Assembly (NCBI RefSeq): GCF_001705235.1
Contig: NZ_MCGV01000001.1
Location: 1,240,001 to 1,304,000, forward strand
Reading direction: 5' to 3'
Source: Clostridium pasteurianum
GTDB taxonomy: Bacteria; Bacillota; Clostridia; Clostridiales; Clostridiaceae
Length of the DNA: 64,000 nucleotides
The notes under the pieces were generated by a model, which was given only the letters and a program-made list of their open reading frames with translations, made no database searches and was not told the DNA's origin. Of the stretch, positions 19,297 to 42,558 are shown one piece after another; position 1 is the stretch's first letter, and every line of letters begins with the position of its first letter. The position numbers and the translations under genes were made by a program.

Positions 19297-19480
19297 TTAT
19301 TTACTTGAGTTGGCTTTCATAACAGCATATACACAATTCTTATCTTGTGCATCTACAATTCCATCTCCATTTACATCAGGTTTATATTTTCCCCATTGGT
19401 CAGAAGTTTTTCCTATACAATTTTTTACTGCGATATAATCTTGCATGTCAACTTTTCCATCTCCATTTACATCGCAATTT
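19297..19480 (-). other. Type I dockerin domain of the giant protein
   Basis: The last ~60 residues hold two EF-hand-like calcium loops, DVNGDGKVDMQD and DVNGDGIVDAQD, each followed by a helix, 35 residues apart. All Ca-ligand positions (Asp/Asn/Asp/Asp) are kept. In clostridial cellulosomes such a module binds type I cohesins of a scaffoldin. Confidence 0.92.
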
Positions 19481-22400
19481 ACGGTATTAAATGTCTGTCC
19501 AGAATATGTTGCATTGTAACTTTGTCCATCCATATTCCAAACGCTTCCACCTAATATATTTATATCTCCTTTTCCAATATTTGTTTTAGCCTTAAATGTT
19601 AACTTTATAATTTTATTATCACCATTTAGAGCTTTATCTCCTGCATTTTCTCCATCTATTGTGATTTTACCTGCATTAGACGCATCCACAGAATCTATAG
19701 TAAATAAACCTGTATCTGCCGATTCTGCTTTAACATAATCAAATAAATTTGAATCATATTTTACAGTTAAGCCCTGTATAATAGATATGTCTATTGCATT
19801 TTTAAATCCAATAGTTACTGTAAATGTATCTCCTGCATTTACTATATTATTATTATCTACATTTATTATATTATCAGTTTCAACATCCATAATAGGAGCT
19901 GGCATTACCTTTGCACTAATTGCATCACTCCACTCACCTACTGCACTGGATATTTTTGCCCTTACTCTAAAGCTATAGCTTGTATTAGCATCTAATCCCT
20001 CTGCTGTATAACTTGTGTTATTGCCGGCATCTATTACCTTTCCATTTACTTCTATATCATATCCTGTTACATCATTTACTGCATTCCATGTAACTTTTAT
20101 TGATGTATAAGTTGAAGTGCTTGATACACCACTTACCTTATCAATAGGCAATGTAGCTTTAGTAATTACATCACTCCAGTCACCTGTTGTATCAGAGCAT
20201 TTTGCTCTTACTCTAAATGTATGACTTGAGTTTACATCTAAACCATCTGCTGTATAACTTGTACCGCTAATATCATTTATTTGTTTTCCATCTAACTCTA
20301 CATCATATCCTGTTGCTCCTGCAACTGCATTCCAACTGTAGTTTATTGATGTATGTGTTGCTGCTGTCTGTACGTCATTTGATGATATTACTGCTAAAGT
20401 TGTTTTAGTTAAAGTGTCACTCCAGTCAGCCATATTATCAGCAGATTTTGCTCTTACTCTAAATGTGTGTTTTGTTCCCGCATCTAATCCTACTGCTGTA
20501 TAACTTGTGTTATTTCCATTACCTATTACTTTTCCATCTATTTCTACATCATAACCTGCTGCTCCTACGACTGCATTCCAACTGTAGTTTATTGATGATG
20601 CGCTTACTGAAGTTGTTATACCTGTTGATGGTATTACCGCTAGTATAGTCTTAGATACTTTATCGCTCCACTCTCCTTTTGTATCTATTGTCTTTGCTCT
20701 TACTCTAAATTCATGAGTTGTTCCTGCTTGAAGTCCATCTACTTCATAACTTGTATTACTACTATTGTCTATAGGTTTTCCATCAAATTCTACATCATAT
20801 CCTGTTGCTCCTGTTACTGCTTTCCAACTATATTTTATTGATGTTGCACCTACTGAAGTTGTTATATCATCTGTAGATATTACTCCTAATGTTGTCTTAG
20901 ATACTTCGTCGCTCCAGTCTGCTGTTGTATCTGCTGTCTTTGCTCTTACCATAAACTTATGAGTTGTTCCTGCTTGAAGTCCATCTGCTTCGTAACTTGT
21001 ACCAGTAATTCCGGTTACTACATTTCCATCAAATTCCACATCATAACTTACTGCTCCAGTTACTACTTCCCATGTTAATTTTATTGAACTGTCTGTTACT
21101 GATGCCTGTATCTTATCTGATGGTACCTTTTCTAAGGTTGTCTTAGTTATTACGTCGCTCCAATCTCCTTCTCCTTTTGCTGTCTTTGCTCTTACTCTAA
21201 ATTTATGAGTTGTTCCTGCTTCAAAATTTACAGCTTCATATGATGTAACATCTTTAACGTCTACAACATTTCCGTCTATTTCTACATCATAACCTTCTGC
21301 TCCTTTTGCCACATCCCAGCTAAGTTTTACGCTAGTTCCTGTTACAGATGTTGTTATACCACTTACAGGTATTACCCCTAAAGTTGTTTTCGTTATAGTG
21401 CTGCTCCATTCTCCTGTTGTATCAGAAGATTTTGCTCTTACCCTATAAGTATGAGTTATTCCTGCATCTAATCCATCTGATTCGTATACTGTACTTGTTC
21501 CATTGTCTATTGTCTTTCCGTCTACTTCTACATCGTAACCTGATGCTCCATTTACTGGTGTCCATGATAATTTTACTGAACTATCTGTTGATGAAGCTGT
21601 TACATTGCCTATTACTGCCAAAGTTGTTCTTGTTACAATTTCACTCCAGTCAGCTGTTCCCTTATCTGTCTTTGCTCTTACTCTAAATTTATGAGTTGTT
21701 CCAGCTTGAAGATTTATAGCTTCATATGATGCAGCATTTCCAGCATCTACTGTACTTCCATCTATTTCCACATCATAGCCTACTGCTCCATTAACTGGTG
21801 CCCATGTAAGTTTTACCGTAGTATCTGTTACAACTGTTGTTATACCGCTTACAGGTATAACACTTAATTCAGTTTTTACTATTGGTTCACTCCATTGTCC
21901 TGTTGTATCAACAGATTTTGCTCTTACTCTGCAAGTATAAGTTACACCTGCAATTAAATTTTTTGCTTCATAACTTGTACTGTTAGCATTATCTATAATC
22001 TGTCCATTTATTTCTACATCATAACCAGCTGCTCCTTCTACAGGTGCCCACGATAATTTTATGCCAGTATCGGTATTTACTAAGGTTATACCATCCTTTG
22101 GTATCATACCTATTGGTGTCCTGGTTATAAACTGACTCCAATCTCCTGCTGCCTTAGCTGTCTTTGCTCTTACTCTAAATTTATGAGCTACTCCTGCCTC
22201 TAGGCCTGCTGCTTCATATGATGTATTACTACCAGCATCCATAACTTTTCCATCTACTTCTACTTCGTAGCCCGTTGCTCCATCTACTGCAGCCCATGTA
22301 AGTTTAACTGTATTATCTGTTACAGCTGTTGTTATGCCACCTACTGGTATAACATTTAATGTAGTCTTTACAATTGGATCACTCCATTCTCCTGTTGTAT

Positions 22401-25400
22401 CAGAAGATTTCGCCCTTACTCTATACGTATGAGTTACTCCTGCAGTTAATCCAGTTGCTTCATATACTGTACTGTTGCCATTATCTATTGTTACTCCATC
22501 TACTTCTACATCGTAGCCTGCTGCGCCTTTTACTGCATCCCAAGTAAGTTTTACTGAAGATGCTGTTACATTTGATATAACTTTATCTGATGGTATTACT
22601 GCTAATGTAGTTCTTGTTATTATGTCACTCCAATCGCCTGAACCATTACCTACTTTTGCTCTTACTCTAAATTTATGAACTGTTCCTTCTTCAAGTCCTA
22701 CAGCTTCATATGATGTACTGCTGCCAGCATCTACTACTTTGCCATCTACTTCTACATCATATCCTACTGCTCCTGTTATTGCAGCCCAAGTAAGTTTTAC
22801 ACTAGTTCCTGCTACTGATGTTGTTACATTACTTACTGGTATTTGAGATAATGTTGCCTTTACAATTGTGTCACTCCATATACCTGTCGTATCAGAAGAT
22901 TTTGCTCTTACTCTATAAGTGTGTACTGTTCCTGTTGCAAGTCCTGTAGCTTCATATACTGTACTGTTTCCATTGTCAATTGTTACTCCATCTACTTCTA
23001 CATCATATCCTGTTGCATTACTAACTGCATCCCAAGTAAGCTTTATTGAGGTATCTGTTGCTGTTACTGTAATTTTATCTGCTGGCACTACAAATAATGT
23101 TGTTTTTGCTATGACTTCACTCCAATTACTTACAGTATCTGAAGTTTTTCCTCTTACTCTAAATTTGTGTACAGTTCCTGGCTTAAGTCCATCTAATTCG
23201 TAATAAGTTTTATCACCATTATCTATTACTGCTGTACCATCTATCTCAACATCATAACCTGTTGCTCCCTTTACTGCAGTCCAGTCTAATCTTATTGAAG
23301 TATCCGTAACAGTTGTCTTTACACTTCCCATAGATATTTGTGCTAAAGTTGTCTTTACTATTGCTGTGCTCCAATCTCCTGCACCATTTCCAACTTTGGC
23401 TCTTATTCTAAATGTATGAGAAGTTCCAGCTTCAAAGCCACTCCCTGTATAAGAAGTGCTATTACCATTATCTACTGGATTTCCATCTACTTCTACATCA
23501 TAACCTGTTGCTCCGTCTATTGCCTTCCATGTGAGTTTTACAGTTGATTCTGTAACATTTGCTGTTATATCACTTAATGATGGTGAAGATAAAGTTACTT
23601 TATTTATAGGTGCACTCCATTCTCCTATCCCTTCATCTGCTTTTGCTCTTATCCTGAATACATGATTTGTACCTACTGTTAACCCATCCACTTCATAACT
23701 TGTGTTATTTCCAGCATCTATTACATTGCCATCTACTTCTATATCATAACCTGCTGCGCCTGTTACTGCACCCCAAGTTAATTTTACTGATGTACCTGTT
23801 GCTATTGCTGTTACACCACTTGCTGATACTGAATCTAAAGTAGTTTCCTTTACAGTTTCGCTCCAGTCACCTATGCCAGTATCAGTCTTACCTCTTATTC
23901 TATAAGTGTGAGTTACTCCTGCTTTAAGTCCTGTAGCTTCATATACTGTACCATCACCATTATCTATTACCTTGCCATCTACTTCTACATCATAGCCTGT
24001 TGCTCCATTTAATGCCTTCCAGCTTAATTTTATTGTAGAATCTGTTACAACTGCTGTAATATCATTTTCTGTTAGTACAGCTATTGTCGTTTTGTGTATT
24101 AAGTCACTCCATTCTCCAAATCCATCTTTTGTCTTTGGTCTTATTCTATAAGAATGAGTTATTCCAGGCTTAAGTCCTGTAGCTTCATACACTGTACTTC
24201 TTCCATTATCTACTGTTTGACCATCTACTTCTACATCATAACCTGTTGCTCCATCTACTGGTTGCCATTCAAGTTTTACTGATGTATCTGTAACTGAAGA
24301 TGCTACATCATTTGCTGGTATTACTGAGAGTGTTGTCTTTTTAATTTCATCACTCCAGTTTCCTATTGTATCTGAAGTTTTTGGTCTTATTCTATAAGTG
24401 TGAGTTACTCCTACATCTAGACCTGTTGCTACATATACTGTACTGTTTCCGTTGTCTATTGTCTTTCCATCTACCTCTACATCATAGCCCGATGCACCTG
24501 TTACTGCACTCCAAGTTAATTTAACTGATGTGCCTGTAACTTCTGATACTACACCGCTGCTAGGTATTGTAGCTAAAGTTGTTTTATTGATATTTTCACT
24601 CCAGTCAGCTGAACCACTTTTTACTTTTGCTCTTATTCTAAATACATGAGTTACTCCAGTACTTAGACCTGATGCTGTATATGCTGTGTTATTTCCATTA
24701 TCTACTTGTTTTCCATCTACTTCTACATCATAACCTGTTGCTCCAGCTACTGGTTTCCATGTAAGTTTTACTGTAGAATCAGTTATTTCTGCTGTTACAT
24801 CATTTGATGTTATTACATCTAAAGTAGTCTTCGTTATTACGTCACTAAAGTTTCCAATAGTATCAGAAGTTTTTGGTCTTATTCTATAAGTATGTGTTAC
24901 TCCATTAACAAGACCTGTAGCTTCATATACTGTACTATTTCCATTGTCTACTATTTTTCCATCTACTTCTACATCATAACCTGTCGCACCAGCTACGGCA
25001 TTCCAGCTTAATTTTACTGACGTTCCTGTTGAAACTGATGTTACACCACTTGTAGGTATTACTGACAAAATAGTTTTTGTTACTATTTCACTCCAATCGC
25101 CTGCTCCATCCACTGTCTTTGGTCTTATTCTAATACTATAAACTGAACCAGCTTGAAGATTTAATGCAGAATAACTTGTATTGTTACCATTATCTATTGT
25201 CTGTCCATTTATTTCTACATCATAGCCTGTTGCCCCTGCTACTGGTGTCCAGCTTAAATTTATTGTAGAATCTGTAGCTTCTGCTGTAATACTATTTTTA
25301 CTTATTGGAGATAATATAATTTTACTTATTGGATTACTCCATTCACCTACTCCATTATCTGTTTTCGGTCTAACCCTATAAGTGTGTTTTGTTCCCGGTT

Positions 25401-28400
25401 TTATATCCTCTGCTGTATAAGTCGTATTACTTCCATTGTCTACTATTGTTCCATCTACCTCTACATCATAACCTGTTGCTCCATTTACCGGATTCCAGCT
25501 TAATTTTATTGATGTTCCTGTTACTTCTGCTGTTACGCTGGTAGGTAGTAACGGAGATAATGTTGTTTTAACAATTGGATCACTAAAGCTTCCTACTGTA
25601 TCTGCATTTTTGGCTCTTATTCTATACGTATGTGTTACTCCAGTAGCAAGTCCAGTCACTACATAGCTTGTACTACTTCCATTGTCTATTACATTGCCAT
25701 CTACCTCTACATCATAACCTGTTGCCCCTGTTACTGCTGCCCAAGTTATTTTTATAGTAGTATCAGTTGCTTTTGCCGTTATACTATTCTTATCTATAGC
25801 ACCTATCGTAGTTTTAGTTATTATGTCACTAAATTTTCCTTCTCCATTTGCACATTTAGCTCGTACTCTAAATTTATAAGTTGTGCCTGCTGGCAAATCT
25901 TTTAATTCATAGCTTGTATTATTACCATTATCGATGATGTTTCCATTTACCTCTACATCATAACCTGTTGCTCCCGTTACTGCATTCCAGCTTAACTTTA
26001 TTGATGTTCCTGTTACTTCTGTTGTTATATTAACAGGAGATAATGTAGCTAATATAGTTTTAGTAATTGTTCCGCTGAAACTTCCTATTGTATCCGCATT
26101 TTTTGCCCTGATTCTATAGGTATGTGTTGTTCCAGTTTCTAGCTTTTCTGCAGTATATACCGTACTGCTTCCATTATCTATAGTATTTCCATCTACTTCT
26201 ACTTCATAACCAGTTGCTCCTGCTACTGCATTCCAGCTTAATTTTATCGATGTATCTGTTACTTCTGTTGTTACACCATTAACATCTATTACGCCTATTG
26301 CAGTTTTAATTATTGAATCACTGAAATTTCCTAGTGTATCTGCTGTCTTTGGTCTTATTCTATACACATGAGTTGTTCCTGGTATTAATTGTAGTGATGT
26401 ATAACTTGTATTGTTTCCATTATCTATTATTGTGCCATCTACTTCTACATCATAGCCCGTTGCACCAGTTATTGCATTCCAACTTAATTTTATTGATGTT
26501 CCCGTTACTTCTGCTGTTACACCACTAGTTGGAATTACACCTAATGTTGTCTTAACAACTGATGAGCTCCAATCGCCTGTTCCATCTAAAGTTATTACCC
26601 TTACTCTATAAGTATGAGTTGTTCCTGGTTGTAGATCATTTGATGTATAACTTGTACTGTTTCCATTATCTATTACTTTTCCATCTACTTCTACTTCATA
26701 TTTAACAGCTCCACCTACTGCATCCCAATTAAGAGTTATTGATGTTCCTGCTGTACTTGATTTTATATTTACTACTTCTCCTAGTGTTTGTTTACTTACT
26801 AATGTACTCCAATCACCAATTCCATATGAATTTTTTGCTCTTACTCTGTAAGTATTAGCTGTTCCTGGTGCTAATCCATCAACTTCATAACTTGTGTTGT
26901 TTCCATTATCTATTGTTTTTCCATCTATTTCTATATCATAACCTACTGCGCCATCAACTTTGTCCCATGATATATTCATTGATGTACTTGTAACTTTTGA
27001 TGTTATATTACCCATATTACCTGGAGTAATTACTGTAATTAAGTTTGTCCATGCTCCAACTCCACTTTGTGTTCTAAGCCTTACTCTATAAGTATGTGTT
27101 GAGCCTGCTGCTAATCCTGTTGATGTATAACTTATATCAGTACCGTTATCTATTATTTTTCCATCTACTTCTATATCGTAGCCTACTACACCTCTAATTG
27201 GTCCCCACTGTACTTTTATAGTTGTACCTGTTACATCTATAACCTTAAATCCATCAGGAACTTTAGTTTGATCCTTTGAATTAGGGAATATTGGTATTGA
27301 TAATTTTCTAAGGTACGGATAAGCTTTATCAATTGCCCATGTAAATACAAATTCCCAATCTAAGAAAGTATTCTTATTAAATAAATCATTTGTAGCTTTT
27401 GCTTCATCTGTAGGTGTTTTTATTCCTGAGGCTGTGCTATCAAAATAACTTCTAGTAATTGTTGCTCCTCCTGCAGAAATTCCACCTAAATTTGAACCTG
27501 CATCTACTACTTTTCCTGCTGAATAACAAGTTTTTATAGTTGTAGCTCCATTACCAGTTCCATGTATTCCTCCTATATAGTCGGTTCCACTTACATCTCC
27601 TAAATTAAAGCTATCTTGAATTGTACTTGAATCAGAATATCCAACAAGTCCTCCTATGTTTTTAACACCTTTTATAGTTCCTGTTGAATAGCATTGAGAA
27701 ACTTGTCCATTTAAATAGCCTGTAAGCCCTCCTACATTATTAGCTGAATTTGAAGTTACATTTCCATTACTATACGAACCTGTTATATTTCCTTTAATGC
27801 TTCCTGCAAGTCCTCCTACGTAATTTCCATCAGAACTTACATCTCCCTCAGTGTAGCAATTTGTTATATTTCCATTACTGAGACTTCCTATAAGTCCTCC
27901 AACATAATCCTTCGTGCCAATTACTCTTGCAGTTGAAGATGAGTTACTTATATTAAGCCCGGATGCTGCTCCTACTAAGCTTCCTACATAACCTCCACCT
28001 TCTATGTTTCCATCAATAACAATACAATTATCGATAACACTTTTTCCTGAAACATTGGCTGCTAAAGCACCTACATAGTCTCCAGCTAAAATGTTTGTAT
28101 TTTTCATAACAACATTCTTTATTTCTGCTGAACCACCAACATATCCAAAAAATCCACATGCATCTGTGTTACCTTTATTCATAGAAAGATTTTTTATTGA
28201 ATATCCGTCTCCGTCAAAACTTCCTGTAAATTGCGCATTGCTATTTCCTATTGGTGTCCAATCTACTCCTGAAAGATCAATATCATTTCCAAGCTTGTAA
28301 TGTGCTGTCAAATCATATTTCATATTTTCAAGCTGCTCTACCGTAGTTATAATATAAGGATCTTCTGCTGTTCCTTTTCCTTTTGCAGCATTTTTATCTG

Positions 28401-31400
28401 TTACCGTTACACAATCCGGTTTATTTATAGTCTTTAAATAAGGATAAGATTTTCCTTCATCTATACCCCAAGTATTTATGAACTCCCAGTTTTGAAATGT
28501 ATCTTTTGATTCCATTTCATTGGTTAATTTACTTGCATCATTACCATTTTGTGGAATATAGCCACTTGCCATTCCATCATAATAACTTTTGACAACTGTA
28601 CTTCCATTTCCTTCTATTCCACCTACATAACTTCCTGATGCAGTTATTTTACCAGTTGAATAACAATATTGTATTGTTCCACTTCCATTTCCTTGCAATC
28701 CACCTACACATGAATGTCCACTAACAGAAGACATACTAAAACTATTTTGGATTGTAGTGGAAGGAGAATATCCTGTAAGTCCTCCAACATCATCAACTAA
28801 TGCTGTTACACTTCCAGTTGTATAACACTGATCAATTGTACCAGAAGACATATAACCTACCAGTCCACCAACATATGATCCCTTTGATTTATCACTATTT
28901 CCTTTTGCATTGACGTCATTAGTTGTATAACATCTTGTTATAGTACCTGAAAAACTTCCTACCAAACCTCCAATGTCATTTCCATTTTTTGATATTACAT
29001 TACCAGTAGCATAACAATTTGATATTATACTTCCAGTTCCATCAATTTGTCCAACAATACCGCCTACGTTATCACCATTTACTGTTTTACCACTTGGATC
29101 AACTTCATCAGTTATATTTACCTTTACTGAAGAATTTGAGTTAGTTATAGTAAGGCTATTTCCGTATCCTACTAAACCTCCAGTAGATCCATAAGCTGTA
29201 ATTATTCCATCAGCTGAACAGTTATCAATTACACTTTTACTTGTATCTGAATTTAAAACATATCCTGCCAATGCTCCTGTATAGTTTCTTCCAATTATAT
29301 TAACGTTTTTAAGTTTTAGATTTATTATCTTTCCACCAGTTACATATCCAAATAGTCCAGTTGCACTATTTTCATTTTGCAATCTGTTCATAGAAAGATT
29401 TTCTATAGAGTATCCATTTCCATCTAAAGTTCCTGTAAATGCTACATTACTGTTAATCCCTATTGGTGTCCAATTTATTCCCTTAAGGTCTATATCATTT
29501 CCAAGTTTGTAGTATGCTCCAGGATCACATTGTATATTTTCAAGTTGCTCTACTGTTTTTATAATATATGGATCGCTAGCCGTTCCTTTACCTCCTGCAA
29601 CTTCTCCTGTAGGAAGTCCTTTAGCTACTCCATCTGGTTTAGCTAGAACTTTTAGATAAGGATATGAACTTCCTTCATCTATTGCCCATATATTTATAAA
29701 TTCCCACTTTAAGAAATTACTCTTCTGTTTCATTGATGATGTTATTCTACTTATGTCATTAGCATTTTGTGGCATATACCCACTTGATATTCCATCATAA
29801 TAACTGTTGTCTATTGTTCCACCTGCTCCTGTTATTCCACCTACATATTTTCCTGATGCAGTTATTTTACCCGATGAATAACAATGTGATATATTTTCAG
29901 TTGTATTTTTGTATCCCAGCAAACCGCCTACATATGAAGCTCCACTAACTGGCGCCAAACTAAAACTATCGCAAACTTTACCTGAATTCATATATCCGAT
30001 AAGTCCGCCTACAAAATTTGATGTTGATGTTACACTTCCTGCCGCATAGCACTCACTAATACTTCCATTAATATATCCAGCAAGTCCTCCTGCGTTTTTA
30101 CCATTTGAATTAACATTATTAGTTGTATAACATTGTGTTATGTTGCCGTTAATATATCCAACAAGTCCTCCTGTTGAGTTTCCAGTTTTAGATGTTATAT
30201 CTCCAGTTGCATATGAATTTGTAATATCTCCTGTAATACCACCTGCAATACCACCTACATTATCACCATTGATGCCATCGCCATTTACTATTGTCATTTT
30301 AACTGAGGAACCTGAGTTATTTATATTTATTTTGCTTCCATCGCCAGATGTTCCTCCAACTAATCCACCGCTATTACCATAAGCCGTAATTATTCCGCTA
30401 GAATAACAATTATCAATTGTACTTACTCCCATTGCATTTCCTACTAATGCTCCGGTATAATTACCACTTGTTATGTTTACATTCTCTAATTTTAGATTTT
30501 TTATAGTTGCTCCACTTATATAACCAAATAACCCAATTCCACTTACACCCAATTTCTTTATGCTAAGATTTTTTATTGAATGTCCATTTCCATCAAATAC
30601 CCCTGTAAATGGAACCGTACTATTAACCCCTACAGGTTCCCAATCGATGCCCTGTAAATCTATGTCATTTGCCAATTTATAATATGCTCCAAGATCATTT
30701 TTCATATTTTGAAGCTGCTGTGCGGTACTTATAATATAAGGATCATTTGCTGTCCCCTTTCCGCCTGCAACCTCTCCTGTAGGAAGTCCTTCTGTTACTC
30801 CACTAGGCTTAGTTACACCTATTAGATAAGGATAGGACATTCCTTCATCTATTGCCCAAATATTTATGAATTCCCAGTTTACAAACGTACCCTGTTCCTT
30901 CATTGCTGTAGTTAGTCTCGCTACATCAGGTGGATTTTCGGGTGAATACTCACTTGATATTGAATCATAATAACTATTCGTTATAATCGTTGGTGTACCT
31001 GATAATCCACCTAAATTACCTGATGATACTACTTTACCTGCAGAATAACAATTTTTTATTGTAGCATCCCCATACCAATATTCAGTTACCCAAGAGTAAT
31101 TATAATCATATCCATGATCACCAACAGTATTTGTACTACCTTCATCGAAACCCTGTATTCCACCTACGTAATTTCTTCCTTGAACTAATTTTAAATTAAA
31201 ACAATTCTCTATACTATTAAGTGTACTTATGTTATAAGCTGCATAGGAATATCCAACTAATCCCCCAACATTATCTAATGATGCTATAACTACACCTACT
31301 GCATATGATTGATATACATGCCCATGTAACCATCCTGCTAGTCCTCCTACATAACTTCCTTGAGATTTTACATTATTATCAACATAACTTTTTGTTATAT

Positions 31401-34400
31401 CTCCGGTTAGTACGCCAACTAACCCTCCTACATAATCTCCACTCTTAGATATTACGTCTCCAGTTACATATGAACCTGTTATATTTCCTGTAAGTTCTCC
31501 AGCAAGGCCTCCAATTCTCTGTCCAGTATCAGTCTTCTGTCCCACAATTGGATCAATTCCTGAAACTGAAACACTGGAAGAAGAGTTGTTTATGTTTGTT
31601 TCATTATTGCCTTGTCCTATTAATCCTCCCGTATACACATATCCATAAATGGTTCCAGATGCAGAACAATTATCTATAGTACTATTTTCACTATAACCTG
31701 CTATAGCTCCTGTATGATTTCCACCTATGAGATTTACATTTTCCAGTTTTAGATTTTTTATAGTTGCACCTTTTAATCTTCCAAATAAACCTGTTATATC
31801 AGTTCCAAGCCTATTCATAGAAAGATTTTTTATTGAATGTCCATTTCCATCTAAAGTCCCTGTAAACTCACAACCTGCAATTTCTCCTATTGGACTCCAT
31901 TTAACTCCTGTAAGATCAATATCATTTCCAAGCTTATAGTGACCACCTAAATTATATTTTATATTTTGCAATTGCTCCACGGTATTTATAATATAAGGAT
32001 CACTCTCTGTACCTTTACCAGTTAAAACTTGTCCATTAGCTAACCCATCAGGTTTTTTTACATTCTTTAAATATGGGTATGACTTTCCTTCATCTATTGC
32101 CCATGTATTTATGAATTCCCAGCCTTCAAAGTTTTGCTGTTCTCTCATTGCTGTAGTTATTCTACTATTAATAGCATCGTTACTATTTTGAGGTGCGCAG
32201 CCACTTACAATTCCATCATAATAACAATGATTTACTGTGTAATTTGACCCCGTAATTCCTCCAATATTTGAAGTTCCTGTTAGCTTTCCAGCTGCATAAC
32301 AATTTTGTATTGTAGTACTTCCACTGCCTTGAATTCCTCCGACAAATGAATTACCACTAACTTGTGATATACTGAAACTATTTTGTATAGTACCAGATGC
32401 TGCATAGCCAACAATTCCTCCTATATTATCTGTTCCACCTATATTACCTGTTGAGTAACACTGATCAATTGTTCCTTGAAAATTTCCTGAAATTCCTCCT
32501 ACATTTTTTTGGCTTGAAGTTACATTATTAGTTGTATAACATTTTGATATGCTTCCACTTGACCATCCTACAAGCGCTCCCGTATTGTTTCCACTTTTTG
32601 ATATTACAGTTCCAGTTGCATATGAATCTGAGATATTTCCTTCAAGTGCTCCTATAATACCTCCTACATCGTCTCCTGAACCTGTCACATTTACACTAGA
32701 ACGCGAATTAGTTATGTTCAATATATTTGTACTTCCATCCATATATGCATATCCAACTAATCCTCCAGTACATCTATAACCTACAATAGTTCCATTGGCA
32801 TAACAGTTATCTATTGTACTTGTAATTTTTCCACCAATTACATTTCCCGTAATTGCTCCAGTATAATTTCCACCTATTATGTTTACATTATTTATACTTA
32901 GATTCTTTATCGTTGCACCACTTATACATCCAAACAATCCACTTAAATCAGTACCTAGTCTGTTCATAGAAATGTTTTTTATTGAATGTCCATCTCCATC
33001 TAATACTCCTGTAAATGGTACATTATTATTTCCTATTGGTGTCCAATTTATACTACTTAAATCGATGTCATTTGCCAGTTTATAATACGCGGTAAGATTA
33101 TAATTCATATTTTTAAGTTGCTGAACATTACTTATTATATATGGATTATTTTGTGTTCCACTGCCACTCGTTTCTCCTTCTGATGGAAGTCCTTTCGTTA
33201 CTCCATCTGGCTTTTTAACATTTCTTAGATATGGATACGATTTTCCTTCGTCTATCGCCCATGTATCCAAAAACTCCCAGTTATTAAAAGTACTTTGCAT
33301 TTCCATTGAAGTTGTAGATCTACTTGCATCATAGGTATTTTGTGGTACATATCCGGCCGCTGTTCCATCATAATAACTATCAGTTACAGTTTCATTTGTA
33401 CCCGTAAGTCCACCAGCGTTTCCGCTTGATGCAGTTATCTTTCCAGCAGAGTAACTATCTTTCACAGTACTGCCAGATGCATTACCATTAATTCCACCTA
33501 CATATGAAGCTCCACTTACTGGTGCTAAATTAAAGCTATTCTGTACAGTAGTTGAATTAATGCTTCCTGCAAGTCCTCCTACATAACTTCCAGTAGATGT
33601 CACACTTCCTGCTACATAAGATTCATCAATTATTCCTTGATGCCATCCTGCAAGTCCTCCTGTATAATTCCCACTAGAGCTTATATTGTTAGTTGTATAA
33701 CATTTAGTTATATCTCCAGTTAACCATCCTACAAGTCCTCCAGTGCTGCTTCCGCTTTTGGATATTACATCTGAAATGGCATAACTATTTGTTATATTCC
33801 CTGTAAGGCTTCCTACAATACCACCTTCATTATCTCCAGATGCATTAACAGTTACAGCAGAATATGAATTATTTATCTTTAATCCACTTGCTGTTCCTAT
33901 TAATCCTCCTGCATTAGAATTTGCAAATATCTTTCCATCAGCTGAACAATTATCTACGGTACTTGTACCTGTAACACTTGCTGCTATTGCTCCTGTACAA
34001 TTTCCGCCGATAACGTTTACGCCTTTTACGTTAAGGTTCTTTATTACACCATTACTTACATACCCAAACAATCCATTTCCTTCAACATTTAATTTATTTA
34101 TTGAAAGATTTTTTATGGTATGTCCATTTCCATCCAGCACACCACTAAACTTTGTTGAACTAGTGCCTATAGGTGTCCATTCACTACTTTGCAGATCAAT
34201 ATCACTGCCAAGTTTATAACTTGCTGATAAATTACTGCTCATTTCTTGAAGTTGTGCTTTTGATGTTATCACATAAGGATCATTTATTGTACCTGTTCCC
34301 GTGCCAGAAAAAGCATACACTCTATTTGAACCAAACACCAGAAAAGAAATAGCTGCCAGTAACGGCATTATAAAGAACCAAAAAGATTGGCTTTTTTTAG

Positions 34401-34413
34401 TTCTTTTAGGCAT
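19297..34413 (-). CDS. Giant secreted GLUG/FN3/cohesin/dockerin repeat protein
   Basis: The gene encodes about 5,038 residues in one open frame. A signal peptide (about 1-34, ending RVYA-F) is followed by six GLUG-type blocks (about 36-2385). Each is 370-420 residues, begins with a GxGTxxDPYII sequence and contains many GGLVG/GGIVG turns, a predicted beta-helix. Residues about 2386-4836 hold 30 FN3-like repeats of ~82 residues (GTSVKLSW, GATGYDVEVDG, HTYRVRAK). Then comes a cohesin-like beta domain (about 4837-4978, GDTFTVTIGFKNA) and a C-terminal type I dockerin with two Ca loops (DVNGDGKVDMQD and DVNGDGIVDAQD). No LPXTG or SLH anchor is present, so attachment probably goes through the dockerin. 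It probably acts in adhesion to plant material or cells. ATG 34413 follows GGGGGTG; an ATG at 34428 lies before that site. It is flanked by a terminator and a palindrome-rich upstream region. Confidence 0.9.
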   Translation of the reverse strand: MPKRTKKSQSFWFFIMPLLAAISFLVFGSNRVYAFSGTGTGTINDPYVITSKAQLQEMSSNLSASYKLGSDIDLQSSEWTPIGTSSTKFSGVLDGNGHTIKNLSINKLNVEGNGLFGYVSNGVIKNLNVKGVNVIGGNCTGAIAASVTGTSTVDNCSADGKIFANSNAGGLIGTASGLKINNSYSAVTVNASGDNEGGIVGSLTGNITNSYAISDVISKSGSSTGGLVGWLTGDITKCYTTNNISSSGNYTGGLAGWHQGIIDESYVAGSVTSTGSYVGGLAGSINSTTVQNSFNLAPVSGASYVGGINGNASGSTVKDSYSAGKITASSGNAGGLTGTNETVTDSYYDGTAAGYVPQNTYDASRSTTSMEMQSTFNNWEFLDTWAIDEGKSYPYLRNVKKPDGVTKGLPSEGETSGSGTQNNPYIISNVQQLKNMNYNLTAYYKLANDIDLSSINWTPIGNNNVPFTGVLDGDGHSIKNISMNRLGTDLSGLFGCISGATIKNLSINNVNIIGGNYTGAITGNVIGGKITSTIDNCYANGTIVGYRCTGGLVGYAYMDGSTNILNITNSRSSVNVTGSGDDVGGIIGALEGNISDSYATGTVISKSGNNTGALVGWSSGSISKCYTTNNVTSSQKNVGGISGNFQGTIDQCYSTGNIGGTDNIGGIVGYAASGTIQNSFSISQVSGNSFVGGIQGSGSTTIQNCYAAGKLTGTSNIGGITGSNYTVNHCYYDGIVSGCAPQNSNDAINSRITTAMREQQNFEGWEFINTWAIDEGKSYPYLKNVKKPDGLANGQVLTGKGTESDPYIINTVEQLQNIKYNLGGHYKLGNDIDLTGVKWSPIGEIAGCEFTGTLDGNGHSIKNLSMNRLGTDITGLFGRLKGATIKNLKLENVNLIGGNHTGAIAGYSENSTIDNCSASGTIYGYVYTGGLIGQGNNETNINNSSSSVSVSGIDPIVGQKTDTGQRIGGLAGELTGNITGSYVTGDVISKSGDYVGGLVGVLTGDITKSYVDNNVKSQGSYVGGLAGWLHGHVYQSYAVGVVIASLDNVGGLVGYSYAAYNISTLNSIENCFNLKLVQGRNYVGGIQGFDEGSTNTVGDHGYDYNYSWVTEYWYGDATIKNCYSAGKVVSSGNLGGLSGTPTIITNSYYDSISSEYSPENPPDVARLTTAMKEQGTFVNWEFINIWAIDEGMSYPYLIGVTKPSGVTEGLPTGEVAGGKGTANDPYIISTAQQLQNMKNDLGAYYKLANDIDLQGIDWEPVGVNSTVPFTGVFDGNGHSIKNLSIKKLGVSGIGLFGYISGATIKNLKLENVNITSGNYTGALVGNAMGVSTIDNCYSSGIITAYGNSGGLVGGTSGDGSKININNSGSSVKMTIVNGDGINGDNVGGIAGGITGDITNSYATGDITSKTGNSTGGLVGYINGNITQCYTTNNVNSNGKNAGGLAGYINGSISECYAAGSVTSTSNFVGGLIGYMNSGKVCDSFSLAPVSGASYVGGLLGYKNTTENISHCYSSGKITASGKYVGGITGAGGTIDNSYYDGISSGYMPQNANDISRITSSMKQKSNFLKWEFINIWAIDEGSSYPYLKVLAKPDGVAKGLPTGEVAGGKGTASDPYIIKTVEQLENIQCDPGAYYKLGNDIDLKGINWTPIGINSNVAFTGTLDGNGYSIENLSMNRLQNENSATGLFGYVTGGKIINLKLKNVNIIGRNYTGALAGYVLNSDTSKSVIDNCSADGIITAYGSTGGLVGYGNSLTITNSNSSVKVNITDEVDPSGKTVNGDNVGGIVGQIDGTGSIISNCYATGNVISKNGNDIGGLVGSFSGTITRCYTTNDVNAKGNSDKSKGSYVGGLVGYMSSGTIDQCYTTGSVTALVDDVGGLTGYSPSTTIQNSFSMSSVSGHSCVGGLQGNGSGTIQYCYSTGKITASGSYVGGIEGNGSTVVKSYYDGMASGYIPQNGNDASKLTNEMESKDTFQNWEFINTWGIDEGKSYPYLKTINKPDCVTVTDKNAAKGKGTAEDPYIITTVEQLENMKYDLTAHYKLGNDIDLSGVDWTPIGNSNAQFTGSFDGDGYSIKNLSMNKGNTDACGFFGYVGGSAEIKNVVMKNTNILAGDYVGALAANVSGKSVIDNCIVIDGNIEGGGYVGSLVGAASGLNISNSSSTARVIGTKDYVGGLIGSLSNGNITNCYTEGDVSSDGNYVGGLAGSIKGNITGSYSNGNVTSNSANNVGGLTGYLNGQVSQCYSTGTIKGVKNIGGLVGYSDSSTIQDSFNLGDVSGTDYIGGIHGTGNGATTIKTCYSAGKVVDAGSNLGGISAGGATITRSYFDSTASGIKTPTDEAKATNDLFNKNTFLDWEFVFTWAIDKAYPYLRKLSIPIFPNSKDQTKVPDGFKVIDVTGTTIKVQWGPIRGVVGYDIEVDGKIIDNGTDISYTSTGLAAGSTHTYRVRLRTQSGVGAWTNLITVITPGNMGNITSKVTSTSMNISWDKVDGAVGYDIEIDGKTIDNGNNTSYEVDGLAPGTANTYRVRAKNSYGIGDWSTLVSKQTLGEVVNIKSSTAGTSITLNWDAVGGAVKYEVEVDGKVIDNGNSTSYTSNDLQPGTTHTYRVRVITLDGTGDWSSSVVKTTLGVIPTSGVTAEVTGTSIKLSWNAITGATGYDVEVDGTIIDNGNNTSYTSLQLIPGTTHVYRIRPKTADTLGNFSDSIIKTAIGVIDVNGVTTEVTDTSIKLSWNAVAGATGYEVEVDGNTIDNGSSTVYTAEKLETGTTHTYRIRAKNADTIGSFSGTITKTILATLSPVNITTEVTGTSIKLSWNAVTGATGYDVEVNGNIIDNGNNTSYELKDLPAGTTYKFRVRAKCANGEGKFSDIITKTTIGAIDKNSITAKATDTTIKITWAAVTGATGYDVEVDGNVIDNGSSTSYVVTGLATGVTHTYRIRAKNADTVGSFSDPIVKTTLSPLLPTSVTAEVTGTSIKLSWNPVNGATGYDVEVDGTIVDNGSNTTYTAEDIKPGTKHTYRVRPKTDNGVGEWSNPISKIILSPISKNSITAEATDSTINLSWTPVAGATGYDVEINGQTIDNGNNTSYSALNLQAGSVYSIRIRPKTVDGAGDWSEIVTKTILSVIPTSGVTSVSTGTSVKLSWNAVAGATGYDVEVDGKIVDNGNSTVYEATGLVNGVTHTYRIRPKTSDTIGNFSDVITKTTLDVITSNDVTAEITDSTVKLTWKPVAGATGYDVEVDGKQVDNGNNTAYTASGLSTGVTHVFRIRAKVKSGSADWSENINKTTLATIPSSGVVSEVTGTSVKLTWSAVTGASGYDVEVDGKTIDNGNSTVYVATGLDVGVTHTYRIRPKTSDTIGNWSDEIKKTTLSVIPANDVASSVTDTSVKLEWQPVDGATGYDVEVDGQTVDNGRSTVYEATGLKPGITHSYRIRPKTKDGFGEWSDLIHKTTIAVLTENDITAVVTDSTIKLSWKALNGATGYDVEVDGKVIDNGDGTVYEATGLKAGVTHTYRIRGKTDTGIGDWSETVKETTLDSVSASGVTAIATGTSVKLTWGAVTGAAGYDIEVDGNVIDAGNNTSYEVDGLTVGTNHVFRIRAKADEGIGEWSAPINKVTLSSPSLSDITANVTESTVKLTWKAIDGATGYDVEVDGNPVDNGNSTSYTGSGFEAGTSHTFRIRAKVGNGAGDWSTAIVKTTLAQISMGSVKTTVTDTSIRLDWTAVKGATGYDVEIDGTAVIDNGDKTYYELDGLKPGTVHKFRVRGKTSDTVSNWSEVIAKTTLFVVPADKITVTATDTSIKLTWDAVSNATGYDVEVDGVTIDNGNSTVYEATGLATGTVHTYRVRAKSSDTTGIWSDTIVKATLSQIPVSNVTTSVAGTSVKLTWAAITGAVGYDVEVDGKVVDAGSSTSYEAVGLEEGTVHKFRVRAKVGNGSGDWSDIITRTTLAVIPSDKVISNVTASSVKLTWDAVKGAAGYDVEVDGVTIDNGNSTVYEATGLTAGVTHTYRVRAKSSDTTGEWSDPIVKTTLNVIPVGGITTAVTDNTVKLTWAAVDGATGYEVEVDGKVMDAGSNTSYEAAGLEAGVAHKFRVRAKTAKAAGDWSQFITRTPIGMIPKDGITLVNTDTGIKLSWAPVEGAAGYDVEINGQIIDNANSTSYEAKNLIAGVTYTCRVRAKSVDTTGQWSEPIVKTELSVIPVSGITTVVTDTTVKLTWAPVNGAVGYDVEIDGSTVDAGNAASYEAINLQAGTTHKFRVRAKTDKGTADWSEIVTRTTLAVIGNVTASSTDSSVKLSWTPVNGASGYDVEVDGKTIDNGTSTVYESDGLDAGITHTYRVRAKSSDTTGEWSSTITKTTLGVIPVSGITTSVTGTSVKLSWDVAKGAEGYDVEIDGNVVDVKDVTSYEAVNFEAGTTHKFRVRAKTAKGEGDWSDVITKTTLEKVPSDKIQASVTDSSIKLTWEVVTGAVSYDVEFDGNVVTGITGTSYEADGLQAGTTHKFMVRAKTADTTADWSDEVSKTTLGVISTDDITTSVGATSIKYSWKAVTGATGYDVEFDGKPIDNSSNTSYEVDGLQAGTTHEFRVRAKTIDTKGEWSDKVSKTILAVIPSTGITTSVSASSINYSWNAVVGAAGYDVEIDGKVIGNGNNTSYTAVGLDAGTKHTFRVRAKSADNMADWSDTLTKTTLAVISSNDVQTAATHTSINYSWNAVAGATGYDVELDGKQINDISGTSYTADGLDVNSSHTFRVRAKCSDTTGDWSDVITKATLPIDKVSGVSSTSTYTSIKVTWNAVNDVTGYDIEVNGKVIDAGNNTSYTAEGLDANTSYSFRVRAKISSAVGEWSDAISAKVMPAPIMDVETDNIINVDNNNIVNAGDTFTVTIGFKNAIDISIIQGLTVKYDSNLFDYVKAESADTGLFTIDSVDASNAGKITIDGENAGDKALNGDNKIIKLTFKAKTNIGKGDINILGGSVWNMDGQSYNATYSGQTFNTVNCDVNGDGKVDMQDYIAVKNCIGKTSDQWGKYKPDVNGDGIVDAQDKNCVYAVMKANSSK
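19481..19910 (-). other. Cohesin-like domain of the giant protein
   Basis: About 140 residues resemble the cohesin/carbohydrate-binding beta-sandwich: NAGDTFTVTIGFKNAIDI, VKYDSNLFDYVKAES, KIIKLTFKAK and the final INILGGSVWN strands. It precedes the dockerin directly, as in some clostridial surface glycosidases. Whether it binds a dockerin or a ligand cannot be told from sequence. Confidence 0.7.
19911..27260 (-). repeat. Array of 30 FN3-like repeats within the giant gene
   Basis: Thirty tandem coding repeats average about 245 bp (82 residues). Conserved core: (T/S)xKLxWxAVxGAxGYDVEVDG, then IDNGN, then a THTYRVRAK strand and a W(S)D segment. The repeats from about unit 18 to 25 alternate between two types (RAKSSDTTGEWS and RAKTxKGxGDWS), revealing a two-unit higher-order period of about 490 bp. 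Confidence 0.85.
27261..34310 (-). repeat. Six GLUG-type blocks within the giant gene
   Basis: Blocks begin near 34305, 33168, 32030, 30765, 29592 and 28380 (minus strand), spaced 1,120-1,265 bp. Each opens with GxGTxxDPYII, then LxNDIDL, WTPIG, FTGxLDGNGHSIKNLSMN, about ten GGLVG-type turns and ends with WEFINTWAIDEGKSYPYL. Spacing variation shows gain and loss of single GLUG turns. Confidence 0.85.
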
Positions 34414-34456
34414 ATTTTTCACCCCCATTTTTGCCTAACATATATTTTTTTGTAAT

Positions 34457-34679: not shown

Positions 34680-35423
34680 ATGTTAAATTATATTCAAATG
34701 GGAAATAAAAAAAGTCCAAAAACTTTACTGTTCATTCATGGAAGCGGCTGCAATTATAAAATTTTTGGTGAAGTATATAAATACTTAACTGATTACAATT
34801 GCATACTGATAGACCTTAATGGACATGGAAAAAGTGAAGGTAAATGTTCTCCTACTGTAGAGGGTTATATCGATAACGTAACAGCTTTTATAAAAAGCAG
34901 CGAAGTAATTAAAAACGAACAAGATATTACTATAATAGGCTACAGCATGGGCGGGGGCATAGTTCTTGGAGTAGCATTAAAAAAATTACCTAATGTAAAA
35001 AAAGTTGTAGTTTTAAGCGGAGGAGCCAAATTTACTAAATTAAAAGATAGCGAACTTATGAAAAAATATCATAAAACTAATGAATTAGATATGAATCTTA
35101 CTATTCAATGCTTTACAGCTAACAAACCAACTCCTTTAATTTTAAAATACGTTGACACATTAGAGCAGGATCCTAATGTAACAATAAATGATTTAACTGC
35201 CTGTGAAAAATTTGATATATCTAATCAAATAAAAAATATTGATATACCTGTTAAAATTTTTGTAGCAAGAGACGAAATACTTGTCCTTAAGGAATATGCT
35301 GATTTTGTTAATACTCAAATTAAAGATTCCATATTAACAGTTTTTGAAAACGGAAGGCATTTCTTACTTGTTTCAAAAGGTAAAGAAGTAGCAAAAGAAA
35401 TAAATAGTTTTATATCCGATTAA
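34680..35423 (+). CDS. Alpha/beta-hydrolase (lipase/esterase-like), copy 1
   Basis: The 247-residue enzyme has the alpha/beta-hydrolase fold: oxyanion-hole motif HGSG (20-23), nucleophile elbow GYSMGG with Ser89, acid Asp198 (VARDE) and base His227 (ENGRHFL). The complete triad predicts an active serine hydrolase acting on an ester or thioester; substrate unknown. There is no signal peptide, so it is cytoplasmic. The ATG follows GGGAGGTG. It is the first of four tandem paralogues (one destroyed) leading to a KAS III-like gene on the same strand. A GGGGCTG...CAGCCCC hairpin (35438-35475) lies just after the stop. Confidence 0.88.
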   Translation: MLNYIQMGNKKSPKTLLFIHGSGCNYKIFGEVYKYLTDYNCILIDLNGHGKSEGKCSPTVEGYIDNVTAFIKSSEVIKNEQDITIIGYSMGGGIVLGVALKKLPNVKKVVVLSGGAKFTKLKDSELMKKYHKTNELDMNLTIQCFTANKPTPLILKYVDTLEQDPNVTINDLTACEKFDISNQIKNIDIPVKIFVARDEILVLKEYADFVNTQIKDSILTVFENGRHFLLVSKGKEVAKEINSFISD

Positions 35424-35437
35424 ACTGGAATATACAA

Positions 35438-35475
35438 GGGGCTGTCACATTATTTAAATTTAATATAGCAGCCCC
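35438..35475 (+). terminator. Hairpin after hydrolase copy 1
   Basis: GGGGCTG (35438-35444) pairs with CAGCCCC (35469-35475), and an inner ATTTAAAT can extend the structure. No T tract follows, so termination would be partial; it may be a repeat-derived hairpin. Confidence 0.5.
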
Positions 35476-35519
35476 ACCATCAACTTCATTAAACAGCTAT
35501 TAATATGTAGATGTTTAAA

Positions 35520-35952
35520 ATGTTAAATTATTTTCAAATAGGAAATAAAAAAAGTTGTAGTTTTAAGTGATTCTTCAAAATTTGATAAAGCAAAGGATAC
35601 TGAAATCCATCAAACTGGTAAACTAGACATAAACCTTTTATATAACTGCCTTGGCAATCAAGACAATCCGTTAACCTCTAAATATGTGAAAGCACTCGAA
35701 TCAGATTCAAAAATAATAATAAACGATTTAACCATTTGCGAAAATTTTGATTTTTCTAATGAAATTAAAAATATTGATACACCCGTTAAAATTATTGTAG
35801 CAAAAGATGAAATACTTGTATTCCTTGAATATGCTGAACGAGATAATTGTAAAATTAAAAATTCTATACTTCCAATTTTTGAAAGCGGACGACACTTTTT
35901 ATTAGTTGTCAAAGGTAAAGAAGTTGCAAAGGAAATATCCGCTTTTATATGA
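35520..35952 (+). pseudogene. Hydrolase copy 2, destroyed by a 290-bp deletion
   Basis: The sequence starts like copy 1 (MLNYFQIGNKK) and then jumps directly to the equivalent of residue 107 (KVVVLSDSSKF), continuing to the C-terminus with Asp and His of the triad (VAKDE, ESGRHFL). In copy 1 the two break points both read TAAAAAAAGT, 290 bp apart; the pseudogene keeps one copy. The loss is not a multiple of three, so the ATG frame stops after 16 codons. The HGSG motif and the serine elbow are gone. The Shine-Dalgarno present before the other copies is also missing. The surviving open part runs 35686-35952. Confidence 0.88.
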
Positions 35953-36059
35953 GATTTATAAATAGCACTTATATCAATACAGTCATCTTGTAGTTTTAAA
36001 TTTTATATATTATTTGCAAAAAACTGCATTAAATAAATTTCAATAAAGGAGACTTTTTT

Positions 36060-36800
36060 ATGTTAAATTATGTACAAGCTGGGAATAATAAAAGTTCAAA
36101 AACATTACTATTTATACATGGAGCCGCTTCAAATCATAGAGTCTATGGTGAAGTTCAAAAATATCTTGAAGATTATAACTGCATACTAATCGATCTTAAT
36201 GGTCACGGTGATAGTAAAGGGCCTTGCTCTCCTACCATTGAAGGATATATTGATAATGTAACAGATTTTATAAAAAATAGTGATGTAACCAAAAATCAAA
36301 ATGACATCACTATAATAGGTTATAGTATGGGCGGTGCAACTGTTCTTGGAATAGCATTAAAAAAATTACATAATGTAAAAAGAGGTGTAGTCATAAGTGG
36401 CACATCTAAATTTAATAAATTAAAAGATACTGAATTTATAAAAAAAATTTATGAAAAACATGAATTAGACCGTGAATGCTTACGCAAATATATTGGAAAT
36501 CAATCTAATCCATTAGCTATTAAATACGCACATCTTGGAGAATCAAATCCAGAACTATTGATGAACAATTTGGTAGCATGCTCAAAATTTGATATATCTG
36601 ACAAAATAAAAAATATTGATATACCAGTTAAAATTCTTATATCAAGAGATGAAAAGCTTGTACTACTAGAATGCGCTGAACGGGATAATTCTAGAATCAA
36701 AAATTCTATACTAACAATTTTTGAAAGTGGAATGCATGTTTTGCCTATTATAAATGGTAAAGGAGTGGCAAAGGAAATTGCTGCTTTTATATCAGATTAA
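36060..36800 (+). CDS. Alpha/beta-hydrolase (lipase/esterase-like), copy 3
   Basis: The 246-residue paralogue of copy 1 keeps the fold and triad: HGAA at the oxyanion hole, GYSMGG nucleophile, Asp in SRDEK and His in ESGMHVL. It differs from copies 1 and 4 around the base histidine (MHVLPI instead of RHFLLV) and at the oxyanion motif (GAA for GSG), which could mean altered substrate. The ATG follows AAGGAGAC. Cytoplasmic, no signal peptide. The 59-nt gap to copy 4 suggests cotranscription. Confidence 0.87.
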   Translation: MLNYVQAGNNKSSKTLLFIHGAASNHRVYGEVQKYLEDYNCILIDLNGHGDSKGPCSPTIEGYIDNVTDFIKNSDVTKNQNDITIIGYSMGGATVLGIALKKLHNVKRGVVISGTSKFNKLKDTEFIKKIYEKHELDRECLRKYIGNQSNPLAIKYAHLGESNPELLMNNLVACSKFDISDKIKNIDIPVKILISRDEKLVLLECAERDNSRIKNSILTIFESGMHVLPIINGKGVAKEIAAFISD

Positions 36801-36861
36801 TCAATTACAGCACTATGCTAGAAACTAAATCATACAAATTTTAATAAAGGAGATATTTTAT

Positions 36862-37602
36862 ATGTTACATTATGTGCAAATAGGTAATAAAAAAAGCGCT
36901 GATACTCTACTCTTTGTACACGGAAGTGGTAATACCTATAAGATTTTTGGAGAAGTTTATAAACACTTAACTAATTACAATTGTATCCTTATAGATCTTA
37001 ATGGTCACGGTGAAAGTAAAGGTGAATGCTCCTCTACTCTGGAAGGATATGCAGATAATGTTATAGATTTTATAAAAAATAGTAACTCAACTAGAAATCA
37101 AAATAAAATCACCCTAATAGGATATAGTCTTGGTGGTTCAATAGTTCTTAGCATAGCATTAAAAAAATTGCCTAATATAAAACAAGCTATAATTATAAGC
37201 GGTGCATCTAAATTTGATAAATTAAAAGACATTAAGGCAATGAAAGAACTTCATAAAAGCGGCAAAATAGATATAGATTTCTTTAATAAATGTATGAGTA
37301 ATCAGCCTAATCCGCTAGTTTACAAATATATGCATATATCAAAATCAGATCCAAAAGTATCAATAAATGATTTAGCAATATGTGAAAATTTAGATATATC
37401 TAATAAAATTAAAGATATTGATATACCTGTAAAAATTATTATAGCAAGAGATGAAATATCAGTGCTTTTAAAATATGCTGAACGTGATAATGCTAAAATT
37501 AAGAATTCCACATTAACAATTTTTGAAAATGGAAGGCACTTTTTATTAGTAGTACATGGCAAAGAAGTGGCGAAAGAAATCGCTGGTTTTGTATCTGGTT
37601 AA
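36862..37602 (+). CDS. Alpha/beta-hydrolase (lipase/esterase-like), copy 4
   Basis: The 246-residue fourth member of the array is close to copy 1, with HGSG, nucleophile elbow GYSLGG (Leu for Met), Asp in ARDE and His in ENGRHFL. The triad is complete. The ATG follows AAGGAGAT. It is the last hydrolase before a 319-bp intergenic region and the KAS III-like gene. Four tandem copies with one pseudogene point to gene amplification under changing selection. Confidence 0.88.
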   Translation: MLHYVQIGNKKSADTLLFVHGSGNTYKIFGEVYKHLTNYNCILIDLNGHGESKGECSSTLEGYADNVIDFIKNSNSTRNQNKITLIGYSLGGSIVLSIALKKLPNIKQAIIISGASKFDKLKDIKAMKELHKSGKIDIDFFNKCMSNQPNPLVYKYMHISKSDPKVSINDLAICENLDISNKIKDIDIPVKIIIARDEISVLLKYAERDNAKIKNSTLTIFENGRHFLLVVHGKEVAKEIAGFVSG

Positions 37603-42479: not shown

Positions 42480-42513
42480 TTTAACACCTCTTATATTTAG
42501 TTTACAATATGGA

Positions 42514-42546
42514 GAAAGAATTGACCATATAAAGATCAATTCTTTC
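42514..42546 (-). terminator. Hairpin between the Ig-repeat giant gene and the Maf-like gene
   Basis: GAAAGAATTGA (42514-42524) pairs perfectly with 42536-42546 across an 11-nt loop. It lies 13 nt after the giant gene's stop but has no T tract, so it may attenuate rather than end transcription, letting some transcripts read into the glycosyltransferase gene. Confidence 0.55.
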
Positions 42547-42558
42547 CCTAGTCAAATC

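Follow-up and report, generated by a model that had tools for sequence, protein, structure and literature searches.

The window analysed here (64,000 nucleotides of Clostridium pasteurianum contig NZ_MCGV01000001.1, positions 1,240,001 to 1,304,000) encodes a giant protein that joins six GLUG beta-helix blocks and 30 fibronectin type III (FN3) modules to a cohesin and a dockerin on the same polypeptide chain. At loop positions 10-11, the dockerin departs from the enzyme dockerins of the same genome, and fusions of a cohesin to a dockerin recur in other bacteria. Our preferred reading, held tentatively and with confidence just short of even, is that the giant is a secreted fibre built of beta-helix and FN3 parts, in which the cohesin and the dockerin would pair with each other, within one chain or between copies.

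In such a fibre, which would have an adhesive or matrix function, the GLUG blocks would form an N-terminal head that binds the ligand, the FN3 modules would serve as a spacer, and the C-terminus would be a fused cohesin-dockerin (Coh-Doc) unit. The dockerin would not be a plug for the cellulosome of this genome; calcium-dependent pairing may act as a clamp within the chain or link copies into paired or chained fibres. Self-pairing is suggested because cohesin and dockerin share a chain, as they do in the other segments described below, because the dockerin is unlike the enzyme set, and because the cohesins and dockerins found in the genome leave no other partner unmatched.

Architecture of the giant protein

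The gene is one open frame on the minus strand (Table 1), in agreement with an earlier note on this DNA that had proposed a single uninterrupted frame of about 5,038 codons and left the strand unstated. The mechanical open reading frame (19297-34428) encodes 5,043 aa; GGGGGTG stands 5' of the second Met (34413, codon 6) in the mRNA, which makes 34413 the likelier start and gives 5,038 codons. The predicted mass is ~526 kDa, signal peptide counted. From the N- to the C-terminus, the protein consists of a signal peptide, six GLUG blocks starting at aa 44, 422, 804, 1223, 1613 and 2017, the FN3 array, the cohesin and, at the very end, the dockerin. Blocks 2-6 share 47-57% identity with block 1, and Pfam Glug matches the protein with an E of 2.6e-46. 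The FN3 array (aa 2393-4847; Pfam fn3 E 3.1e-208) has modules of ~82 aa each, the count being 30 on alignment, where a repeat listing gave 29 rows of which row 28 holds two modules. Cohesin (PF00963, E 5.4e-9) and Dockerin_1 (PF00404, E 1.5e-10) both score above their curated cut-offs, and both calcium loops of the dockerin are intact (DVNGDGKVDMQD, DVNGDGIVDAQD).

The N-terminal signal, the six GLUG blocks, the 30 FN3-like modules, the cohesin-like domain with its intact dockerin and the lack of a recognised catalytic domain had all been described in the earlier note, and each is borne out here. No catalytic Pfam domain was found in the giant at E <= 0.001, and neither an HExxH motif (in 5,043 aa) nor an LPxTG motif is present. 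A genome-wide search for SLH domains, a check that the note had proposed, gave no match at E <= 1e-5, while the same search gave matches in 4 of 14 control genomes; sortases were not searched. Together, the signal peptide read by eye, the beta-helix blocks, the FN3 array and the lack of a catalytic domain support the prediction of a long non-enzymatic secreted fibre. The giant thus differs from the IgA1 proteases (M26), where a GLUG beta-helix also occurs, in having no protease domain and no HExxH. It has one cohesin, compared with at least two expected of a primary scaffoldin. The solved folds that appear to match this cohesin best are those of C. perfringens cohesins (2vo8, 2jh2 and 2w1n). 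In C. perfringens the dockerin is carried by other proteins than the cohesin, whereas in the giant the two share a chain.

Table 1. Features of the giant gene and its upstream region (positions in the window)
Feature	Position	Strand	Basis or remark
Whole gene, 5,038 codons	19297..34413	-	likelier start; mechanical open reading frame begins 34428
Signal peptide, cleavage likely after RVYA	34312..34413	-	read by eye from sequence
GLUG beta-helix block 1	33229..34299	-	
GLUG block 2	32068..33165	-	alignment to block 1
GLUG block 3	30820..32019	-	alignment to block 1
GLUG block 4	29650..30762	-	alignment to block 1
GLUG block 5	28435..29592	-	alignment to block 1
GLUG block 6	27307..28380	-	alignment to block 1
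Array of 30 FN3 modules	19888..27252	-	Pfam and repeat alignment
Cohesin module	19483..19902	-	first 15 bases overlap array end as delimited here
Dockerin module, two intact Ca loops, positions 10-11 MQ and AQ	19300..19482	-	Pfam E 1.5e-10 and loop reading
Perfect 18-bp palindrome TTACAATATATATTGTAA	34458..34475	.	upstream of the giant gene; sole exact copy in genome

Fused cohesin-dockerin segments in other genomes

The term 'fused Coh-Doc unit' is our own grouping and not a published family. The giant falls within it, with a cohesin followed by a dockerin in one chain and calcium loops that are unequal at positions 10-11 (MQ vs AQ). Searches with its Coh-Doc tail returned only the giant itself among 206 genomes of the family (E <= 1e-8), and the giant plus three others, of which G185 aligned to just the dockerin part, among 225 genomes of the order (E <= 1e-6). 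A five-row profile matched 20 of 398 genomes of the phylum, its own included (E <= 1e-6), many by a single module. A seven-row profile matched 26 of 46 genomes, a biased sample picked from 69 FN3 loci. In total, 32 segments span both modules, namely 24 of the 30 loci of the seven-row search, 7 of 8 earlier loci and the giant; the profiles were built as cohesin then dockerin, and the reverse order could not show as one match. The segment ends within 10 residues of the frame end in 25 of the 32, the frame continues beyond the available stretch in five, and 144 and 128 residues follow the segment in L184 and L178, respectively. Positions 10-11 differ between the two loops in all 21 other tandems in which both loops were found, a count from which L042 (a near copy of L039) and rows without a detectable loop were left out. 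Among viral contigs, none of 600 pattern stretches was confirmed as a Coh-Doc relative, and plasmids gave one weak match, from Paenibacillus guangzhouensis (77% covered, 25.6% identical).

The proteins that carry these segments are diverse. Paenibacillus nanensis has 23 Coh-Doc matches, and eight consecutive genes (L185:2-19899 and L186:78-13084) have Coh-Doc at their ends. The fifth of these is truncated where the stretch ends, and seven were scanned for domains: a glycosidase domain (GH20, GH31, GH2 or GH95) was found in four of the seven and F5/8C in all seven. The first dockerin loop reads IG or VG in all eight proteins. The run possibly encodes a scaffold-free enzyme complex. The Paenibacillus segments (L044, L185 and L186) are like that of the giant in being C-terminal, cohesin then dockerin, with two unequal loops. 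They differ in residing on GH2, GH20, GH31, GH95 and other proteins, in many copies in P. nanensis, whereas here there is a single copy, on a fibre. P. guangzhouensis (L044) is listed in the available text of a 2024 survey (PMC11557425) as scaffoldin-containing, with a conventional cellulosome unlikely.

In Tepidibacter (L095:17115-17693) and a Bacillota metagenome-assembled genome (L116:4676-5245), Coh-Doc lies inside proteins that read as RHS proteins, and RHS repeats were confirmed by Pfam in the Coh-Doc proteins of Sporosalibacterium and Anaerovorax (L157 and L160). The gene preceding the L116 segment has GLUG, FN3 and a cohesin match; the one preceding the L095 segment has GLUG and FN3, with a cohesin-like end seen by eye only. 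A general linkage to RHS was considered and rejected as a rule: a YD-rich frame was present in 28 of 69 loci by a crude pattern of our own, and because this pattern ignores orientation and is limited by the flanks, the linkage is retained as a lead only. Occurrence on glycosidases and on RHS proteins means that fused Coh-Doc recurs on unrelated secreted proteins. FN3 arrays with a cohesin-like end and no dockerin, often near RHS genes, were also seen in L121 and L131 (weak cohesin profile match) and, by eye, in L079, L081 and L086. PMC11557425 applies the name accessory scaffoldin to R. hungatei proteins in which 7-9 FN3 accompany a cohesin at the C-terminus. Anaerobacterium chartisolvens (L100:2-19459) has a frame that spans no fewer than 6,486 aa and gave 35 FN3 matches.

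The Coh-Doc tail could also be a structural end-cap, or an attachment to a wall or glycan partner, in which cohesin-dockerin recognition has been lost or redirected. In its favour, the residues at positions 10-11 show wide variation from one fused segment to the next, and the anchor of the giant is unexplained in a genome with no SLH match (E <= 1e-5) and a protein with no LPxTG. Against it, both calcium loops of the giant are intact, and the first loop is conserved across the eight P. nanensis proteins, which argues for kept recognition there. We regard this explanation as clearly less likely than self-pairing.

Relation to described scaffoldins

The survey cited above describes, in the text available, a scaffoldin of C. 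pasteurianum and of Clostridium sp. CT7 in which 30 FN3 are combined with Coh2-Doc2 at the C-terminus; it calls the partners unknown, as this module type occurs in no other protein of these two organisms. These proteins are like the giant in their 30 FN3, their C-terminal cohesin then dockerin and their origin in a clostridium with a simple cellulosome, and one of them may be the giant itself. The survey calls the module type 2, whereas Pfam assigns Dockerin_1 to the giant. A bi-domain Coh1-Doc1 scaffoldin of Acetivibrio mesophilus with three FN3, described in the same source, also combines a C-terminal Coh-Doc with FN3, and is likened there to ScaO of A. cellulolyticus and ScaO2 of C. alkalicellulosi. 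Bi-domain scaffoldins of this type belong to genomes with complex cellulosomes, unlike that of the giant. GLUG does not occur in the main text of PMC11557425, and no literature search aimed at GLUG was made. The main text of a proteome paper on CT7 (PMC7797090), in which a C. beijerinckii database was searched, contains, as far as available, no fibronectin, cohesin or dockerin. The FN3-Coh-Doc core is thus already in print, and four points are new here: a beta-helix head made of GLUG blocks, a dockerin whose code does not fit, a sister genome in which the site is empty, and a connection with fused Coh-Doc segments elsewhere.

The cellulosome of the same genome and the dockerin code

The genome, assembled in two contigs of 4.486 Mb and 191 kb, has six cohesin matches, four in a CipA-like scaffoldin, one in OrfX and one in the giant, so that the search for scaffoldin cohesins suggested in the earlier note returned five cellulosomal cohesins besides the giant's own. 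Ten dockerin matches were found, nine on enzymes and one on the giant. All 16 matches lie over the curated cut-offs; of 14 control genomes, 1 and 2 also had matches of these families above them. The cellulosome cluster at C1:1105-1123 kb encodes seven of the nine enzyme dockerins, at 1105-1118 kb, and the other two enzyme genes lie elsewhere. The giant gene, at 1259-1274 kb, is ~137 kb from the last scaffoldin cohesin; docked proteins usually, though not always, carry a catalytic domain or are encoded in or near the cip cluster. By our own reading, the proteins of the cluster resemble the C. acetobutylicum set in the available text of PMC11063209.

At loop positions 10-11, the enzyme dockerins read VL/VL (six), VN/VL (two) or VL/VM (one), and the MQ/AQ of the giant is unlike all nine. 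These positions are taken as recognition residues that differ by species, those of C. acetobutylicum being called unique (PMC5748583, available text), and two positions alone do not settle dockerin specificity. The sister genome G160 has eight dockerins in a 60-kb stretch (L187-L188) that are all GR/GR, compared with VL/VN/VM here (L017-L019); in one of the eight, the second loop was mis-registered by the pattern and GR was read from the printed sequence. Between the two sister species there is, in other words, a wholesale switch of enzyme-dockerin residues at these positions. The giant dockerin fits neither set. The trees concern short domains with long branches, and L168, L169 and L171 (no detectable loop) as well as L042 are absent from them. 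In these trees, the five cellulosomal cohesins and L178 form a group of six (support 0.907), and the nine enzyme dockerins, L177 and L051 a group of eleven (0.79), with the giant outside in both cases; the third nearest dockerin to the giant is an enzyme dockerin.

Several observations weigh against pairing of the giant's own modules. The genome has five cellulosomal cohesins, one of them on OrfX, which has a hydrophobic N-terminus (by eye) and a single cohesin and looks membrane-anchored, and the dockerin of the giant keeps both calcium loops intact. In addition, the common first loop of the P. nanensis proteins may reflect a shared partner, and the non-cellulosomal setting of the fused segments is not firm, L178 and L172 being from species in which cellulosomes are known. 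The cohesins, OrfX and the intact loops would equally favour a dockerin that plugs the giant onto the cellulosome, via CipA or via OrfX, to give a surface fibre. We consider this unlikely, given MQ/AQ in place of VL/VN/VM in all nine enzyme dockerins, the ~137 kb to the scaffoldin, and the situation in G160, which has a scaffoldin and a single-cohesin protein (five and one cohesins) yet no giant at the matching locus. The docked fibre proposed in the earlier note therefore survives as a long non-enzymatic fibre, while its docking onto a scaffold is weakened by the missing enzyme-dockerin residues, the location of the gene outside the cluster and the recurrence of fused Coh-Doc on unrelated secreted proteins.

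More doubtful still is that the cohesin of the giant captures dockerin enzymes, which would make it an accessory scaffoldin, the label given to such architectures in PMC11557425 (available text). A cohesin fold in a genome with nine dockerin enzymes is compatible with this role, but the cohesin is single and falls outside the scaffoldin group in the tree, and the survey, as cited above, calls the partners unknown for want of another protein with that module type. Self-pairing of the fused modules stays the reading that we prefer.

Gene integrity, locus and sister genomes

An assembly artefact, with the array collapsed or fused, might be suspected in a gene this long and repetitive and is strongly disfavoured, since the longest exact repeat inside the gene is 37 bp, the FN3 modules are only 53-78% identical as DNA, and the 30-FN3 and Coh-Doc architecture is reported from two clostridia (PMC11557425, available text), one of which may be the same genome as here.

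In G160, the aligned parts of the alpha/beta hydrolase and GGDEF genes lie 716 bp apart with no open stretch >69 codons, whereas the 15-kb giant gene stands between the hydrolase and GGDEF neighbours here. As G160 has a site without the giant, the gene would have been gained here or lost there. The last 1,067 and first 1,243 residues of the giant (the latter with the first three GLUG blocks) gave no match in three sister genomes at E <= 1e-5. In the stretches fetched from G161 and G162, only the GGDEF gene aligned (G161 also has ABC-type matches), and these are uninformative on the site. The G+C content at third codon positions of the giant gene is slightly low (0.144 vs 0.146-0.230 in 19 other genes of the window) and gives no clear foreign sign; horizontal transfer was thus not retained on grounds of composition.

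Loose matches to the arms of the palindrome upstream of the giant gene (<=2 mismatches) number 4 in the window vs 2.08 expected, which is not above chance, and a role as a regulon mark was rejected, as the sole other near copy in the genome sits within a reading frame. A promoter scan 5' of the gene gave 11 sites vs 3.9 in shuffles, and no terminator-like site was found 3' of it. The window holds no Rfam family at gathering score and no RHS neighbour of the giant. Three tandem alpha/beta hydrolase genes (34680-37602) all align to one G160 gene. Farther on (40680-50109), Big_5-type repeats, among them near-identical ones, make up a protein of 2,516 aa that adjoins an MptE-like gene; for neither did the 16-kb stretch of G160 with neighbouring genes give a match (E <= 1e-15).

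Implications

If fused Coh-Doc segments are self-assembly modules in general, an idea that we put forward with low confidence, secreted fibres, RHS proteins and glycosidases could chain without a scaffoldin, and the giant could form head-to-tail cables insulated from the cellulosome by a separate code. Dockerins are usually taken to mark a protein as part of the cellulosome. In this case, the genome encodes a real cellulosome and, in addition, a dockerin that lacks the residues of that cellulosome and is fused to its own cohesin. Self-pairing is suggested as a simple answer to the partner question left open in the available text of PMC11557425, and the comparison joins the giant to Coh-Doc segments of Paenibacillus and clostridia; certain of these segments may be wrongly counted as scaffoldins.
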